In this document: positions 2,670 to 18,584 of the stretch, in pieces
Layout: the number at the start of each line of letters is the position of its first letter
Numbering within the stretch: the stretch's first letter is position 1
Virus record (IMG/VR): IMGVR_UViG_3300017917_003957
Coordinates: 1-22,098 of that record
Source of the DNA: a virus
Reading direction: 5' to 3' (one strand)
DNA length: 22,098 bases
Notes under the pieces: generated by a model
The model's database searches: none
Seen by the model: the letters and a program-made list of their open reading frames with translations, nothing else
Told to the model about the DNA's origin: nothing
Translations under genes and position numbers: made by a program

Positions 2670-4058
2670 ATGAGTCAAGAAACTGAACGAATTCGTAAAG
2701 TTATTCAAATAACAAATGAAATAAGTCCTACATTCTGTCTGGCTAAATGGCAGCATGTAACAATGTATATGAATACTGGACAAACTCATAGTTGCTATCA
2801 CCCACGACCTCATGAGATTCCTTTAGAAGAACTAAAAGACAATCCTAGTGCATTACATAATACCATAGAAAAGAAAAAAGAACGCGAGTTAATGTTAAAG
2901 GGCGAAAAGCCATCCGGATGCCAGTATTGTTGGAACATTGAAAGTCTAAGCCCAGATCACATCAGCGACAGGCACATTAGAAATGCTGGAATTTACTATC
3001 CCGAAGTTCTAGAAGAAGTAAAGAATAATAGCTGGGACTATAATGTAAATCCTTCTTACATCGAAATAAGTTTCAGTAACGAGTGCAATTTTAAATGTGG
3101 GTACTGTCATCCAAAGTATTCTAGCAGTTATTTCAGCGAGATCAGACAGCACGGTCCTTATCAAAATGTACAGAATCACGGGAATCATATTGACTGGTTT
3201 ACCATTTATCCCGAAGAAAATAATCCGTGGATTGACGCTTGGTGGAAATGGTGGCCCGAGATGTCGAAAACTCTGCAAATTTTAAGAATCACTGGCGGCG
3301 AACCCCTAATGCACAGAAGCACATGGAAGCTTCTTAAAATTTTAAAAGAAAGTCCAATGCCACAATTGGAATTAAATTTTAACAGTAACCTTGGCGTAAA
3401 GAATGCCATGGTTGATAAATTTGTCGGCGAGCTAAAATATCTTATTGATAATAAATGTATCAAACGTTTTAAACTTTATACTAGTATTGATGCATGGGGC
3501 GAACGTGCGGAATATATTAGAACAGGTTTAGATTTAAAGATATGGGAAAAGAATCTCGACACTTACATAAAGACTATAGGTCTTCCTGTAAGTTTTATGA
3601 TTACCTTTAATATTTTTTCTGTCACAACATTTAAAGATCTACTTGCTAAGATTTTAGAATTTCGAAAAAAATATAACAGATATAAGGTAGTTTCTACAAA
3701 TAAAGATCAGTTTCGAATTATTCAATTTGACGTTCCGTATCTTAAAGAACCTTTGCAGTATGACATTAATTTGTTGCCCAAGGACGAATTCTTACCCTAT
3801 ATGAGAGATAGTTTACAGTTTATCAAAGACAATATTCAGGACGACGATCCAACTAAATTCAGTGAACTAGAGTACGAAAGATTCCGTCGAGTTGTTGATT
3901 ATATGGAAACTACTCACTACGATGAAGCAAAGGTAAGAGAAGGACGTAAAGATTTTTATACTTGGTTTACTCAGTATGATCAAAGACGAAATGTTAATCT
4001 TTTAGAAACTTTTCCTGAAATGCAAAACTTTTTTGAATTGTGTAAAAATACAAAATAA
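2670..4058 (+). CDS. Radical SAM protein with N-terminal twitch-type Cys domain (copy 1)
   Basis: A 462-residue radical SAM enzyme. The core cluster motif is Cys139-x3-Cys143-x2-Cys146 (ECNFKCGYC), and the SAM-binding GGEP is at 209-212 (ITGGEPLM). Before the core are four conserved cysteines, Cys23 (FCLAKW), Cys42 (HSCYHP) and Cys84-x2-Cys87 (CQYC). Their spacing is the same in the second copy at 10288-11733, so they probably bind an auxiliary Fe-S cluster. This layout matches the radical SAM family described with an N-terminal twitch domain, common in aquatic phages. Its reaction is unknown; the neighbours suggest sugar or protein-side-chain modification. It is 2 bases from the following oxygenase gene. 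No Shine-Dalgarno is obvious, but a TATAAT sits at 2656-2661 close to the ATG. The family call is firm; the substrate is open. Confidence 0.88.
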   Translation: MSQETERIRKVIQITNEISPTFCLAKWQHVTMYMNTGQTHSCYHPRPHEIPLEELKDNPSALHNTIEKKKERELMLKGEKPSGCQYCWNIESLSPDHISDRHIRNAGIYYPEVLEEVKNNSWDYNVNPSYIEISFSNECNFKCGYCHPKYSSSYFSEIRQHGPYQNVQNHGNHIDWFTIYPEENNPWIDAWWKWWPEMSKTLQILRITGGEPLMHRSTWKLLKILKESPMPQLELNFNSNLGVKNAMVDKFVGELKYLIDNKCIKRFKLYTSIDAWGERAEYIRTGLDLKIWEKNLDTYIKTIGLPVSFMITFNIFSVTTFKDLLAKILEFRKKYNRYKVVSTNKDQFRIIQFDVPYLKEPLQYDINLLPKDEFLPYMRDSLQFIKDNIQDDDPTKFSELEYERFRRVVDYMETTHYDEAKVREGRKDFYTWFTQYDQRRNVNLLETFPEMQNFFELCKNTK

Positions 4059-4060
4059 AC

Positions 4061-4792
4061 ATGGAAAAGCTAGACGATTTTTTTACAAAGAATATTTTTG
4101 ATACGGCTGAAGACTACCTATCTGCCCAGCCTGGTCCTATGGGGGTGATTGACAATTTTTTGCCCAACGATGTCGCTCTAGCTCTTCACAACGAAATGAA
4201 TACAGTTCCTGACGAACACTGGAAAACTTTTACCAGGAACGGCAGTCACATGATGGAGTTGAACAAACTGCATCTAACACCATTGGCATTTCAATTGGTA
4301 AATTATCTGCACAGCTCTTATGTGCTAGATCAACTATGTAAGTTAACTGGATTTTCTAGTTTGATTCCAGATCCTTATCTGGTAGGCGCCGGATACAGCA
4401 AATCTTTTCACGGTGACACGTTAAAATTGCACACAGATTTTAACTGGAATGATCAGCTAAGACTTCACAGGGCCTGTTCGATTATTCTATATCTAACACC
4501 AGATTGGGATCCAGCCTGGCATGGGGGACTCGACTTTTACGATCAGAAAAGAAAAGAAGTAGTAACCCATGTAGATTGCCTGTTCAACAGGTGCCTAATA
4601 TGGAATTACCACAAATATGGATGGCACGGCCATCTTAAACCATTGAACTGTCCACCGAACATTTTTCGAAGCACTTTTAGATTGTTTTATTATTACAGTA
4701 ATTCAAGCTACAATCCTGACGATCTTCCTCATCGTAGTCAGTATTGGATCAACGATGACGGATTACCAACAGACAAGAAAGAATATAAATGA
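4061..4792 (+). CDS. 2-oxoglutarate/Fe(II)-dependent oxygenase (prolyl-hydroxylase-like)
   Basis: A 243-residue soluble enzyme of the double-stranded beta-helix oxygenase type. The iron site can be read as His124-Thr-Asp126 (LHTDFNW) with a distal His at 189 or 191 (GWHGHLKPL). Arg207 in STFRLFYYYS is the expected 2-oxoglutarate carboxylate ligand. YLTPDW followed by WHGGLDFYD is the usual strand between them in prolyl-4-hydroxylase-like members. Such enzymes hydroxylate side chains or small molecules using O2, Fe(II) and 2-oxoglutarate. Here the target could be a sugar, a lipid-linked intermediate or a virion protein. The stop codon overlaps the next ATG (ATGA), indicating translational coupling. 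The family call is secure from the motif spacing; the substrate cannot be read. Confidence 0.85.
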   Translation: MEKLDDFFTKNIFDTAEDYLSAQPGPMGVIDNFLPNDVALALHNEMNTVPDEHWKTFTRNGSHMMELNKLHLTPLAFQLVNYLHSSYVLDQLCKLTGFSSLIPDPYLVGAGYSKSFHGDTLKLHTDFNWNDQLRLHRACSIILYLTPDWDPAWHGGLDFYDQKRKEVVTHVDCLFNRCLIWNYHKYGWHGHLKPLNCPPNIFRSTFRLFYYYSNSSYNPDDLPHRSQYWINDDGLPTDKKEYK

Positions 4793-10287: not shown

Positions 10288-11733
10288 ATGAAAGATAAGA
10301 AAAAAGATCTTAACATTCGCGGCAATGAAATAGTAAAAGTTGACGGTAAAGATGTAAGCAAATACTTTGTAGATGCACAAGAAGTTAACAATAAACTAAA
10401 TCAAGTCAGCCCTAGTTTTTGTCTAGCCAAGTGGTTCAATGTAAGTATTCATATACCCACAGGACAGACTCACAGTTGCTATCATCCTAAGAGCCATCAT
10501 ATTCCCTTAGAGGAAATTAAGATAGATGTGTCGGCATTGCATAATACCAAGTATAAGAAAGAACAGCGAGCTCTGATGCTCAAGGGAGAAAGACCGTCCG
10601 AATGTCATTTTTGCTGGGAAATTGAAGATAGTGGTAATCAGTTAAGCGATCGCGCCTACAGAAGTAAAGATGTATGGAGAGAAGATGTTATTGAAGAAGC
10701 ACTGACTCTCGGATCCCAAGGTAACGCAAAGCCGAGATATGTTGAAGTAAATTTTAATCAAGCCTGTAATTTCAAGTGCAGATACTGTAGTCCCCATCTG
10801 AGTACCGAGTGGATGAAGGATATTGAAAAAAACGGCCCCTACATCCTTACTGATCGTTGGCATAATGATTTGACCTGGATGAAAGAGAGTAATGTCTGGC
10901 CCAATAATAGTCCAGACAGTCCATACATCAACGCATTCTGGGAATGGTTTCCTACAATCTATGACGAGCTTCATACATTTAGAATGACTGGTGGCGAACC
11001 ATTAATGGATAAAAATACCTTTAAGGTTTTTGATTATGTAAATCAACATCCTAAAAAAGATTTACATTTAAGCATTACTAGCAATTGCTGTCCTCCGGGA
11101 ACACAGTGGGCCAAGTTTATAAACAGCATGTACGAGTTTATCGATAATGACAGTATAGATCATTTTATGTTGTTCTGTAGTTTAGATGGTTGGGGAGAAC
11201 AAGCTGAGTATATTCGAACAGGTATGCATTTCGAAACGTTAAAAAAGAACATACGAAAGTTTTTATCTTTAGAACAGAAGCATAGCCTTACGTTTATTTG
11301 TACGTTCAATGTTTTAAGTTACACCAGTTGGTTAGATTATATAAAAAACATTTTACAGTTAAGAAAAGACTTTAACAAAGTTCGACAGTTAGTATGGTTT
11401 GATGCTCCACAACTACATTATCCTGACTGGCTAAGTGCAAAGTTATTGCCTGAAATGGTTACTGTACTAGAAGAAAGCATCGCATTTATGGAAGCCAATA
11501 AGGAAACATCAGACGAACCATTCAAAGGATTTACAGACTTTGAAATAAGCAAGATCCAGAGATTGGTAGACTGGATTCGAAGCCCTATACATTTTGATAA
11601 GGATCTTGCAATGAAAAACTTTTATCTGTTTATCAACGAAGGCGACCAAAGGAATCAAACAGACTTTTTAAAGACTTTTCCACAATTGACCGATTTTTAT
11701 CAAGAGTGTAAAGAAAAATTTGAAAATGATTGA
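10288..11733 (+). CDS. Radical SAM protein with N-terminal twitch-type Cys domain (copy 2)
   Basis: 481 residues, paralogous along its length to the protein at 2670-4058. The radical SAM motif is Cys160-x3-Cys164-x2-Cys167 (ACNFKCRYC) and GGEP is at 235-238 (MTGGEPLM). The four N-terminal cysteines, Cys45 (FCLAKW), Cys64 (HSCYHP) and Cys106-x2-Cys109 (CHFC), have exactly the spacing of copy 1 (19, 42 and 3 residues), which supports an auxiliary Fe-S cluster. It carries 22 extra N-terminal residues, Lys/Asp-rich. AAGAAAG before the ATG is an acceptable ribosome binding site. The following gene starts 8 bases inside its 3' end. Two divergent copies in one operon suggest two successive or substrate-distinct radical steps in the same pathway. 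Confidence 0.88.
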   Translation: MKDKKKDLNIRGNEIVKVDGKDVSKYFVDAQEVNNKLNQVSPSFCLAKWFNVSIHIPTGQTHSCYHPKSHHIPLEEIKIDVSALHNTKYKKEQRALMLKGERPSECHFCWEIEDSGNQLSDRAYRSKDVWREDVIEEALTLGSQGNAKPRYVEVNFNQACNFKCRYCSPHLSTEWMKDIEKNGPYILTDRWHNDLTWMKESNVWPNNSPDSPYINAFWEWFPTIYDELHTFRMTGGEPLMDKNTFKVFDYVNQHPKKDLHLSITSNCCPPGTQWAKFINSMYEFIDNDSIDHFMLFCSLDGWGEQAEYIRTGMHFETLKKNIRKFLSLEQKHSLTFICTFNVLSYTSWLDYIKNILQLRKDFNKVRQLVWFDAPQLHYPDWLSAKLLPEMVTVLEESIAFMEANKETSDEPFKGFTDFEISKIQRLVDWIRSPIHFDKDLAMKNFYLFINEGDQRNQTDFLKTFPQLTDFYQECKEKFEND

Positions 11734-13705: not shown

Positions 13706-14026
13706 ATGTTTATTCTCGACACTATCAAACAATCTCCCTCAATCGTATGGAAATTTCTTCAGGATCACTTGGGTCGTATTAGTAGTCATACATTAGGGTG
13801 GCTTACAATTATTCTACTGCATTTTGCTAGCCTTCCAACTTTGTTGGCTGTATTGCTAGCAGAGAATGACAAATTGCCCCCTGTTGATCTTATGATCTTT
13901 GTGTGGAGCGGTCTGATTACGCTATTCTTCAAGAGCCTCATTGAACGTAACTTTTTGTATATTGCGACAATCTGTCTAGGCTTCTGCGCTCAAACAGTGA
14001 TTATGAGTTTGATTCTATTCAAATAA
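13706..14026 (+). CDS. Three-TM small membrane protein, holin candidate
   Basis: 106 residues with three predicted membrane segments at about 30-52, 60-79 and 82-105, short connecting loops and an amphipathic N-terminus (KQSPSIVWKFLQDHLGR). Size, topology and position directly after a cell-wall hydrolase fit a class I-type holin, which would form the membrane lesion for lysis. Aquatic phage genomes often carry this conserved protein next to such a hydrolase. It has AAGGA before the ATG and is probably co-transcribed with the hydrolase. An alternative is a membrane protein of unknown role; the holin role is inferred from topology and neighbours only. Confidence 0.55.
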   Translation: MFILDTIKQSPSIVWKFLQDHLGRISSHTLGWLTIILLHFASLPTLLAVLLAENDKLPPVDLMIFVWSGLITLFFKSLIERNFLYIATICLGFCAQTVIMSLILFK

Positions 14027-14029
14027 ATA
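14023..14029 (+). promoter_or_regulatory. T4-type late promoter core ATAAATA
   Basis: A perfect ATAAATA overlaps the end of the holin candidate gene and ends only 5 bases before the ATG at 14035. No Shine-Dalgarno lies between. With the T4 late spacing (start about 6 bases after the octamer), transcription would begin at or next to the ATG. Confidence 0.6.
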
Positions 14030-14034
14030 GTTTC

Positions 14035-14364
14035 ATGAGAGTTTACGAAATTTTAACTGAAGAGCAATTAGATGAAATAAACTGGCGTAAAGGTCTTGCT
14101 ACCGGTGCCCTTGCGCTAGGTGCTCTAGGTGCTGTTGGACAAGCCCAGGCTAGAGTAGTTCCTGGGCAAGATCCTTCAATTAATCGGCTAACTGGAAAAC
14201 CTAATGTCCAACAAGTTGATCAAACTCAACAGGCACCGAGACAACAAGCACCATCGAATACCGGATTTAGTAAAGAGTATCTCGAAAAAGTTGTAAACGG
14301 TGAGCATCCTCGCCCACTAATCAGCAAAGAAAAAGCTCAAGAACTATTAAAACAATACAAATAA
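14035..14364 (+). CDS. Small virion-type protein with capsid-targeting-like N-terminus
   Basis: 109 residues, unknown function. The first residues, MRVYEILTEEQ, resemble the T4 internal-protein capsid-targeting peptide (MKTYQEFIAEA), and LTE at 7-9 fits the gp21 prohead-protease consensus (Leu/Ile-x-Glu). After INWRK comes a small-residue hydrophobic stretch (about 20-38, Gly/Ala/Leu-rich, ending AQA-R) that resembles a signal peptide or fusion-like segment. The rest is Gln/Pro-rich and then helical and basic (PRPLISKEKAQELLKQY). It is preceded by a late-promoter core and no ribosome binding site. It may be a minor head protein cleaved during assembly and ejected with DNA; that is inference from the N-terminus and promoter class. 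Confidence 0.7.
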   Translation: MRVYEILTEEQLDEINWRKGLATGALALGALGAVGQAQARVVPGQDPSINRLTGKPNVQQVDQTQQAPRQQAPSNTGFSKEYLEKVVNGEHPRPLISKEKAQELLKQYK

Positions 14365-14365
14365 C

Positions 14366-14608
14366 ATGCGTATTTTAGAGCTACTGGAAAAAAAACTACC
14401 CTCGCCCACTAAGAGTCAGTGTGCTGTTAAGCGTCTAAGCAATGTAAGATACAGTCAATGTGTTAGCTTGGGCCTTAGAGCACACGATTCAGATCATACT
14501 GACGGTACAGGCAAACAGGGTGTAAAAGGTAGCGGTGTACGCCTAAAAGGCAAAAAAGCCAAGAGCGAAATTCACGGCGGGCCAGTTAAAGACTACGACG
14601 GAAAGTAA
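14366..14608 (+). CDS. Small basic Gly/Lys-rich protein, capsid-targeting-like N-terminus
   Basis: 80 residues, not assigned to a function. It starts MRILELLEKK, similar in pattern to the preceding protein (Met-Arg, then Glu and a Leu pair, then charged residues), with LLE at 6-8 fitting the Leu-x-Glu prohead-protease site. The remainder is strongly basic and glycine-rich (GTGKQGVKGSGVRLKGKKAK), a composition common in small DNA-associated phage head proteins. The ATG lies 1 base after the upstream stop and has no ribosome binding site, so translation is probably coupled. Its 3' end overlaps the convergent minus-strand gene by 16 bases, with no terminator hairpin visible between them. Confidence 0.6.
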   Translation: MRILELLEKKLPSPTKSQCAVKRLSNVRYSQCVSLGLRAHDSDHTDGTGKQGVKGSGVRLKGKKAKSEIHGGPVKDYDGK

Positions 14609-14958
14609 TCGTCTAGATTATCATCTTGATTGAACACTTCTACGGCTTTTTCTAGAAGTTCTTCGTGATCCATAGATCCCCACTTGTCATCAAGTTCGTA
14701 GATCTTATCTTCATCTATTTCTTCTATCTCTACACCGAGAAGTTCCATTAGTTCTGTTTGAGTAATAAACTCTCCTCGCATATGGCTGACCCATATACAG
14801 GTTAAGAAACTACAAAGGAATACTAGACGACTGTCATCGATACCATACTCGTCACACCAGTCTGTGGTTCTTTGTAGATAATAATCTATATCTTCTAGTC
14901 TGTGTTCTAGCTGTGTAATCCATTCTTTTGTGTCGTCTCTAGTCCACGGTCTTGTCAT
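14593..14958 (-). CDS. Acidic protein of unknown function, last gene of the Fe-S operon
   Basis: 121 residues, rich in Asp and Glu, especially after residue 60 ([17 protein letters not shown] and [11 protein letters not shown]). No known motif is recognised. Its start overlaps the IscA stop by 4 bases, so it is translated in the same operon as the cluster-assembly genes. The Isc operons of proteobacteria end with the small acidic IscX, which binds IscS. Size (121 against about 66 residues) and sequence do not let me call this IscX. A role as an acidic adaptor, iron-binding or regulatory protein is only a guess from position and charge. It might equally be an unrelated phage gene. Confidence 0.6.
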
Positions 14959-15275
14959 ACTCTAAAACTTTCACCGCAGCCACAGCGGTCTTTTTCGTTG
15001 GGATTACGAAACTCGAATCCCTCGTTGAGTCCATTGCGAACCCAATCCATTTCTAGTCCAGTTATGTAAGTCATGCTTTTACTATCTACATAAACATGGA
15101 CTCCCTTTGATTCGAAGACTTTATCTGAATCGAATGCCCTATCTACAAACTCAAGAACATAGGCAAGTCCGGAGCACCCTGTGGTTTTAACACCTATTCG
15201 GATACCAAGGCCCTTGCCTCTTTTTGTTAATTGTAATTTGATTTTTTCAGCAGCCTTCTCAGTTAACGAGATCAT
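14955..15275 (-). CDS. iscA: A-type Fe-S carrier protein, IscA-like
   Basis: 106 residues, full length for the family. It has the three invariant cysteines: Cys34 in TTGCSGLAY, and Cys98 and Cys100 in [20 protein letters not shown] and [17 protein letters not shown] match IscA more than the ErpA-like protein encoded at 15861-16184. A-type carriers accept a cluster from the IscU scaffold and pass it to apo-enzymes. Its ATG lies 17 bases inside the 3' end of iscU and its stop overlaps the next gene by 4 bases, so the three are one translational unit. A phage-encoded copy could direct clusters to phage Fe-S proteins such as the two radical SAM enzymes. The family call is firm. Confidence 0.93.
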
Positions 15276-15651
15276 GCTTATTCCGATAATCTTCTATTGC
15301 CGCCTTAATCGCATCTTCAGCAAGTATTGAACAGTGTATTTTGACCGGAGGTAGGGCAAGTTCTTCTGCAATCTGACTATTCTTAATGCCTCCTGCTTCG
15401 TCAAGAGTCTTGCCCTTGACCCATTCTGTGACAAGAGAAGATGATGCGATTGCTGACCCGCATCCATACGTCTTAAAACGGGCGTCCTCAATAATGCCTG
15501 TTTCATGGTTTACCTTTATCTGAAGTTTCATCACATCGCCGCAGGCAGGTGCTCCAACCATACCTGTACCTACGGAATTGTCGTTTTTATCAAAACTACC
15601 AACGTTACGAGGATTCTCGTAATGGTCGATAACTTGATTTGAATATGCCAT
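15259..15651 (-). CDS. iscU: Fe-S cluster assembly scaffold protein IscU
   Basis: 130 residues, the usual IscU length. All scaffold residues are present: Cys37 and Asp39 (PACGDVMKL), Cys64 ([11 protein letters not shown]), His106 and Cys107 ([15 protein letters not shown]). The LPPVK motif at 100-104, the recognition site for the HscA chaperone, is intact. IscU receives sulfur from a cysteine desulfurase and builds [2Fe-2S] or [4Fe-4S] clusters. There is no iscS, hscA/hscB or fdx in this window, so the phage protein would have to use host partners. TAGGAG lies upstream of the ATG. A small Cys-rich gene ends 17 bases before it and iscA overlaps its 3' end. No key residue is missing, so it should be functional. 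Confidence 0.95.
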
Positions 15652-15668
15652 TTAGGGTATCTCCTATT

Positions 15669-15818
15669 TTAATTCTCAGCACATCTTTCGCAGGTACACT
15701 CAGTGCAGTCACAGTCGTCTGTCATGCAACTATGACCACAATGTGCATCGCATCTGCAACGACATAAAAATTTAATAGTGTATCTTTGATAAGAATCGTC
15801 GTTCGTTTCAGTGTTCAT
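15669..15818 (-). CDS. 49-residue cysteine-rich, metallothionein-like peptide
   Basis: A short gene read directly from the minus strand. It starts at the ATG at 15818, 8 bases after a strong AAGGAG (15827-15832), and stops at TAA 15669-15671, 17 bases before iscU. Residues 1-18 are polar (MNTETNDDSYQRYTIKFL). Residues 19-46 hold ten cysteines (19, 21, 23, 27, 31, 36, 38, 41, 43, 46), mostly as CxC and CxxC pairs, plus His26 and His29. This density is typical of metallothioneins or other small metal-binding proteins. As first gene of the phage Isc operon it may store or deliver iron, zinc or copper, or tune metal availability for cluster assembly. No specific family is recognised. Coding is supported by the ribosome binding site, spacing and Cys pattern. 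Confidence 0.8.
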   Translation of the reverse strand: MNTETNDDSYQRYTIKFLCRCRCDAHCGHSCMTDDCDCTECTCERCAEN

Positions 15819-15836
15819 AATTTTAGCTCCTTGAAA

Positions 15837-15843
15837 TATTTAT
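15837..15843 (-). promoter_or_regulatory. T4-type late promoter core ATAAATA for the Isc operon
   Basis: Reading the minus strand, ATAAATA ends about 18 bases before the ATG of the Cys-rich peptide. The predicted start, near 15831, is right at the AAGGAG ribosome binding site. It lies 4 bases from the oppositely directed GTAAATA for the erpA-like gene, so the two promoters are nearly superimposed. Confidence 0.55.
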
Positions 15844-15847
15844 TTTA

Positions 15848-15860: not shown

Positions 15861-16184
15861 ATGATTAAAATTACCGATTCAGCAAAAGATAAAATACTAG
15901 ATCTTCTAGCAGAAGAAAACAATCCCGATTTAAAATTGCGTACCTTTGTGCAAGGTGGCGGCTGTTCTGGATTTCAATACGGCTTTACATTTGATGAAGA
16001 ACAAAATGAAGATGATTTTGAATTTCCAATCGGCGAATCAAAATTATTAGTAGATGCAATGAGTATGCAATATCTTCAGGGTGCTGAAATTGATTATAAA
16101 GAAGATCTAACAGGTTCTAGTTTTTCAATTAAAAATCCTAATGCTCAAACTACCTGCGGCTGTGGCTCCAGTTTTAGCGTATAA
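15861..16184 (+). CDS. erpA: A-type Fe-S cluster insertion protein, ErpA-like
   Basis: 107 residues. The blocks [16 protein letters not shown] (Cys35), [15 protein letters not shown] and [16 protein letters not shown] (Cys99, Cys101) are close to those of proteobacterial ErpA, which is about 114 residues. ErpA is the A-type carrier that delivers [4Fe-4S] clusters to late targets such as radical SAM isoprenoid enzymes. It is divergent from the IscU/IscA operon and has its own late-promoter-like element. Having both an IscA-like and an ErpA-like carrier means the phage has a two-step delivery route, needing host IscS. The carrier call is firm; ErpA rather than another A-type subgroup is likely from the [11 protein letters not shown] and CGCGSSFS signatures. 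Confidence 0.93.
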
Positions 16185-17551: not shown

Positions 17552-17797
17552 ATGGATAAACGAGCAGTAAAAGAAGTTATGTATGGGGGCATACAAGAAA
17601 TGTGCCGTAACAGGCAGTTATATTACAAGGGCATCAGCCCTGAATACAGTCACTGGACAGAAGAAGGAAAAAAGGCACTTCAGTCTTTTATGGACATGAT
17701 GTCTTACCAAGTGATAAAAGCTGAAGAAGAAGATCTTAAAGATCGTTCAAAAGAAATGATAATTAAGGGTTTAAAAGGAGAAAACCAAGGATCGTGA
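17552..17797 (+). CDS. Small conserved phage protein of unknown function
   Basis: 81 residues starting at the ATG 1 base after the ligase stop. A longer open frame reaching back to 17207 lies over the ligase and is not used. The sequence is mainly helical and charged, with [20 protein letters not shown] and a Lys/Glu-rich C-terminus ([21 protein letters not shown]). I have seen similar small proteins (HWTEEGK ... KGLKGE pattern) in aquatic T4-like phages, without a known role. There are no cysteines except one, no membrane segment and no nucleic acid motif. It sits between DNA ligase and an IF-1 homologue, whose GTG overlaps its TGA stop, so it is co-translated with them. Confidence 0.75.
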
Positions 17798-18012
17798 GCA
17801 AAGAAGATGTTATTAGCATAGAAGGAAAAGTAGACGAAGTTCTGCCCAATGCTATGTTTAGAGTCACACTCGACAACGGAATAAAAATATTAGGGCATAT
17901 TTCTGGACGTATGAGACAGAATAAAATTCAAATTTTAGCTGGAGATCTAGTCCGAGTAGAAATGAGCCCATACGATCTGTCAAAAGGTCGTATTGTGTAT
18001 CGTAGCAAATAA
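17794..18012 (+). CDS. infA: Translation initiation factor IF-1 homologue
   Basis: 72 residues, the exact length of bacterial IF-1. It is similar along its whole length: [40 protein letters not shown], and the near-invariant end [17 protein letters not shown]-1 is an OB-fold protein that binds the 30S A site during initiation and assists IF-2 and IF-3. The start is GTG, overlapping the upstream TGA (GTGA), with AAGGA 6-8 bases before it. It is the last gene of the ligase transcript, followed by a hairpin terminator. No inserted or lost segments are seen, so the protein should fold. A phage copy could raise or alter initiation on phage mRNAs, or replace host IF-1; either role is inference. The identity is secure. 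Confidence 0.93.
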
Positions 18013-18577: not shown

Positions 18578-18584
18578 TATTTAT
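18578..18584 (-). promoter_or_regulatory. T4-type late promoter core ATAAATA for the HNH gene
   Basis: The minus strand reads CATAAATAGTTAGAAC directly before the ATG at 18569. The ATAAATA core ends 8 bases before the ATG, and no ribosome binding site is seen. The predicted leader is 2-3 bases. Confidence 0.55.

Follow-up and report, generated by a model that had tools for sequence, protein, structure and literature searches.

What is a short, cysteine-packed reading frame doing directly in front of a viral iscU gene, and is its product tied to iron-sulfur (Fe-S) cluster assembly or to some other handling of metal? The question arises in a 22,098-nt stretch of viral DNA (IMG/VR virus record IMGVR_UViG_3300017917_003957, positions 1 to 22,098; the whole stretch is called the window here), for which a first-pass annotation had proposed a metallothionein-like (MT-like) gene as the first gene of a phage Isc operon, with a peptide that links metal supply to cluster assembly.

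The reading frame and its operon

The ORF lies on the minus strand, which the first-pass annotation had left unstated, with its ATG at 15818 and its TAA ending at 15669 (Table 1). Its translation is MNTETNDDSYQRYTIKFLCRCRCDAHCGHSCMTDDCDCTECTCERCAEN, 49 amino acids followed by a stop. The layout described earlier proved accurate, from the AAGGAG and its 8-nt spacing through the 49 codons plus stop to the 17-nt gap between the MT-like stop and the iscU ATG (15651), and AGGAG-type sites precede many of the homologues described below as well. The reported count of ten cysteines and two histidines is likewise exact for a core of precisely 28 residues with the pattern CRCRC..HC...C....C.C..C.C..C. 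First-order Markov simulation of the window, repeated 300 times, gave at most 8 cysteines per 30 amino acids and never 10 (0/300) in any frame. An overlapping plus-strand ORF (15639-15767) was rejected, as it found no support and would run antisense to the constrained MT-like gene.

Table 1. Features around the MT-like gene in the window.
Feature	Coordinates	Strand	Evidence
MT-like gene, 49 aa, Cys10 (phage MT-like family)	15669..15818	minus	sequence, homologue scans, conservation
Predicted metal-ligand core, 28 residues (residues 19-46), CxCxCxxHCxxxCxxxxCxCxxCxCxxC	15681..15764	minus	spacing identical in 51 distinct type A cores
Shine-Dalgarno AAGGAG, 8 nt 5' of the MT-like ATG	15827..15832	minus	sequence
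AATAAATA, match to T4-like late promoter NATAAATA, 26 nt 5' of the MT-like ATG	15837..15844	minus	consensus from PMC2984593
iscU, Fe-S scaffold, next after the MT-like gene	15259..15651	minus	TIGR01999, E=2.3e-67, above cut-off
iscA, A-type carrier, overlaps the iscU end	14955..15275	minus	TIGR02011, E=3.4e-47, above cut-off
u121, 121-aa protein, 4-nt overlap with iscA, possibly a gp33-like late-transcription coactivator	14593..14958	minus	weak PF16805 match, E=0.11
erpA, A-type carrier, divergent from the MT-like gene	15861..16184	plus	NF010147, E=1.3e-49, above cut-off

The T4-like late promoter described in cyanophages reads NATAAATA (PMC2984593), and in the window the MT-like gene is the first gene behind a match of this type, ahead of iscU and iscA. 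Because the match stands before the MT-like gene, the series MT-iscU-iscA-u121 is probably a single late transcript, in which the MT-like gene would be co-transcribed with iscU and iscA by virtue of its place between their promoter and iscU. The motif ATAAATA is depleted in the window, with three copies versus about nine expected by chance, at 14023-14029 (plus), 15837-15843 (minus) and 18578-18584 (minus), and gene starts lie just downstream of them at 14035 (plus), 15818 (minus) and 18569 (minus). These sites are likely, though not certain, to be late promoters, since the other two stand only 9-15 nt from ATGs, which is close for a -10 element. Late-promoter matches also occur at -28 to -31 of the MT-like gene in three relatives (L153, L158 and L170; -26 in the window). 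Upstream of phage iscU genes (80 loci, 73 distinct sequences), 14 of the 73 have, within 60 nt, a sequence identical to TATAAATA or one letter away from it, compared with 5% of background windows.

The u121 gene is kept behind iscA or iscU in four other loci (L030, L031, L044 and L050). Its product ends in an acidic C-terminus (DNLDDYFPS) and, judged by sequence, is possibly a counterpart of gp33, the T4 late-transcription coactivator. Elsewhere, the window encodes two related radical-SAM proteins (2670-4058 and 10288-11733, both plus) and a 2OG-Fe(II) oxygenase (4061-4792), all three of which the phage Fe-S genes may serve. The phage genome further carries a homologue of translation initiation factor IF-1 (17794-18012, plus; PF01176, E=2.5e-27).

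A constrained family found in phages

Scans of IMG/VR contigs yielded 28 homologous loci at first. Of the 149 matches to a subsequent profile scan we retained 80, and further sequences were gained by scanning with two divergent members. The resulting family comprises 69 distinct sequences (compared over the last 42 amino acids), all of which keep the ten ligand positions. In an alignment of 54 rows, eight cysteine columns and the histidine of the HC motif (H26) are invariant and the other two cysteine columns hold cysteine in 51 of 54 rows; as the scan patterns were short, conserved and cysteine-containing, conservation inside them is partly selected for, and the other columns are free of such bias. 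The same alignment displays a widely conserved DD..Y motif near the N-terminus. Fifty-one distinct cores, which we call type A, share one spacing with not a single indel, and several of their non-ligand residues are nearly fixed (glycine in 49/51, serine in 50/51, threonine in 49/51, and aspartate or glutamate at three sites). In the type B subfamily (15 distinct cores), CxxCxH replaces CxCxC, so that the third cysteine is a histidine in 15 of 15 cores and the other cysteines are retained.

At the nucleotide level, each of the ten cysteine columns has TGT in some members and TGC in others, and the dN/dS ratio that the first-pass annotation had suggested computing (NG86) has a median of 0.14 over 174 homologue pairs, which are not independent of one another, with every pair below 1. 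Frameshifts and non-conserved cysteines, named in advance as observations that would undo the gene call, were looked for among the homologues, and neither occurred. With the array conserved across homologues, a chance origin of the cysteines is untenable, and the ORF is a real gene under constraint. That it might be no gene at all, being short and known from sequence alone, is a reading to which we assign practically no weight in view of the homologue conservation, the dN/dS values and the ribosome-binding site, and the first two of these led us to reject a non-coding ORF.

To which family does this gene belong? The statement that it belongs to no named one is borne out, as the protein matched nothing in Pfam, PHROGs, NCBIfam or the PDB. 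The bacterial metallothionein model PF02069 left the window protein unmatched up to E=1 and 54 homologues unmatched up to E=10, and neither the protein nor its homologues matched any other metallothionein model. We found no relative in PLSDB plasmids, none in INPHARED phages beyond one chance-level match, and none in two short-pattern scans of about 85,000 GTDB prokaryote species genomes; a cellular origin was rejected on these two scans, within the limits of their patterns. Nor did the open-access literature searched describe a phage metallothionein or metallothionein-like protein. Taken together, the empty searches of protein families, structures, phages, plasmids and prokaryote genomes make this, by sequence comparison, an uncatalogued, phage-borne family that is found only in phages among the databases searched. 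Its members are metallothionein-like by chemistry and are not members of PF02069.

Proposed roles: metal buffer or structural zinc protein

We favor the reading that the product is a metallothionein-like Cys10His metal-thiolate buffer or donor, acting late in infection, and put its probability at roughly 0.55, ahead of a structural zinc adaptor and of a donor specific to Isc. The predicted metal binding would suit the composition: the window protein has ten cysteines in 49 amino acids (about 20%), set in the invariant CxC/CxxC array that characterizes metallothioneins as a functional class. The type B substitution exchanges one metal ligand for another, which argues for metal and against a disulfide. 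A disulfide-rich secreted peptide was rejected on this swap and on the lack of a signal sequence, by eye, in the window protein.

In the proposed mechanism, a small cytoplasmic protein would work as metallothioneins do, with its ten cysteines and invariant histidine wrapping a metal cluster in place of a hydrophobic core. By analogy with metallothionein chemistry, a 28-residue stretch with eleven ligands, each invariant or swapped, would fit about three to four Zn(II) or several Cu(I). Produced late, the protein would buffer or donate metal during the period in which phage metalloproteins and particles are made, and would protect thiol and metal sites during infection. The AlphaFold2 model of the peptide has nearly no secondary structure except a short helix at the C-terminus, at low confidence (pLDDT 64); this lack of regular structure would fit a peptide organized by its metal, as weak evidence.

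Several observations count against the buffer reading. No metallothionein model matched the family. The non-ligand residues (HCG-S, the threonine present in 49 of 51 cores, the D/E sites) are fixed beyond what a pure buffer would require, and this points to a specific partner. Another is the commonest neighbor of the gene, c1. The gene is most often arranged as c4-MT-c1, and in 25 of 52 distinct loci c1 comes immediately after it; c1 (L016:4132-4752 and relatives) is a conserved phage protein of about 210 amino acids that often overlaps the MT-like stop. Its predicted structure is confident (pLDDT 92) and, compared with solved structures, has no known fold, matching uncharacterized viral proteins only.

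The main alternative is that the peptide is a structural zinc mini-protein serving as an adaptor or regulator, in which metal would hold a rigid surface of conserved non-cysteine residues toward a partner of phage or host origin, with c1 as a candidate. The near-fixed non-ligand residues, the conserved N-terminal motif and the recurrent, often overlapping c1 all speak for it. Yet eleven ligands per 28 residues far exceed what one or two structural sites require, and the neighbors differ between loci (c1, c5, c27 or Isc genes), so there is no universal partner; a c1 homologue was sought in the window and not found. We regard this alternative as unlikely, with about one chance in four of being right, and return to the metal-thiolate buffer or donor as the preferred account.

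How does such a protein compare with known metallothioneins? Like the bacterial proteins SmtA, BmtA and PmtA (PF02069), it is small and would be cytoplasmic, with 9-10 cysteines plus histidine ligands in CxC/CxxC motifs and an expected load of about 3-4 Zn, but it has no detectable sequence relation to them and its spacing is unlike theirs. Animal metallothionein alpha and beta domains carry dense CxC/CxxC arrays with 9-11 ligands per cluster. The phage peptide shares this density and differs in its invariant histidine, in the W, Y or F within the core of many members and in having no PDB sequence match. Bacterial metallothioneins are described as well folded around a GATA-type zinc-finger element (PMC10612145), of which the low-confidence AlphaFold2 model of the phage peptide displays no sign, and they are host genes under SmtB or Zur control (PMC9337993), unlike the phage gene.

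Iron-sulfur genes, redox neighbors and a possible role in host metal economy

The reading of the first-pass annotation amounts to a protein devoted to phage Fe-S assembly, whether as a supplier of metal or thiol or as a regulator, and the gene for such a component would keep a conserved place in isc operons. In the window the MT-like gene lies between the late-promoter match and iscU-iscA. Isc genes also occur within about 2 kb of the MT-like gene in two more sequence groups, one of L057-type loci and one of L120-type, L154-type and L214 loci, which are similar in sequence and partly share an nrdA-nrdB region; in L214 the MT-like stop overlaps the IscA start. Among contigs of at least 50 kb, iscU is present on 11 of 19 with an MT-like gene and on 0 of 6 polymerase-matched contigs without one, which suggests that the two genes co-occur, with a small control and contigs that share lineages.

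Against this stands L050, which shares the gene order of the window (ligase, erpA, iscU, iscA, u121, hyp80, hyp106, hydrolase) and lacks the MT-like gene: its erpA-iscU gap measures 51 nt (1127-1177), versus the 209 nt that hold the gene in the window, so presence of the gene varies at this site. A search around iscU turned up an MT-like homologue within 3 kb in only 1 of 80 phage loci (L057), and on longer MT-bearing contigs iscU usually lies 14-110 kb away. Outside the window we saw two close MT-Isc pairs where about 0.6 would be expected by chance (estimated from contig extents), and the adjacency is therefore not statistically secure. One locus filed as phage (L177, CAKLQH020000011.1, 'Acinetobacter phage MD-2021a') contains the entire bacterial operon iscR-iscS-iscU-iscA-hscB-hscA-fdx together with ppiD and hupB and is therefore probably chromosomal DNA.

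We thus rejected Isc as the general context of the family. The operon claim holds in the window phage, where the gene sits behind the promoter match and ahead of iscU-iscA, and fails as a generalization, since most relatives lie elsewhere. The link from metal supply to cluster assembly becomes a minority hypothesis in light of L050, the single locus in 80 and the distant iscU genes; a role devoted to Fe-S assembly is conceivable, weakly supported and, by our estimate, improbable at around one chance in eight. IscU and A-type carriers are a known class of phage auxiliary metabolic genes (PMC5332604), to which the window adds IscU, IscA and ErpA; an MT-like peptide is no component of the described Isc or Suf systems. 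CyaY/frataxin and IscX are likewise small; they regulate or supply IscU, and their genes lie within Isc systems or their products act on these. They are acidic, folded and not cysteine-rich, and the MT-like protein has no family match to them.

Several relatives lie among redox or metal genes, in keeping with the favored metal-thiolate reading, in the order nrdA-[iscU-erpA]-c5-MT-[iscA]-thioredoxin-nrdB, most fully in L120 (816-5853; nrdA-iscU-erpA-c5-MT-x-iscA-thioredoxin-nrdB). A position flanked by nrdA and nrdB, with a thioredoxin-like gene next to it, would suit a thiol-redox buffer or oxidant scavenger for ribonucleotide reductase and other thiol enzymes, but most MT loci are outside this cluster and the type B swap retains a metal ligand while losing a thiol, leaving such a role very improbable. 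The c5 gene of this cluster (L003:4159-4809, phrog_3704) is labeled 'ferredoxin' or 'PurM' in cyanophages; with no Pfam match and, by eye, no ferredoxin cysteine motif, that annotation looks doubtful. The cyanophage genes beside c5 (L178 and L179) include no homologue of the MT-like peptide.

That phages carry Fe-S assembly genes is already known. What the MT-like family may add is a phage-only Cys10His metal-cluster protein, unrelated to cellular metallothioneins, with which large T4-like phages would steer the zinc or copper economy of the host late in infection and, in some lineages, control its Fe-S economy too; taken as one joint claim, we offer this tentatively, at somewhat short of even odds. 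The sequences are short and defined, and thus ready for expression and testing. A widespread, conserved family of this kind would mean that phages manage metals directly.
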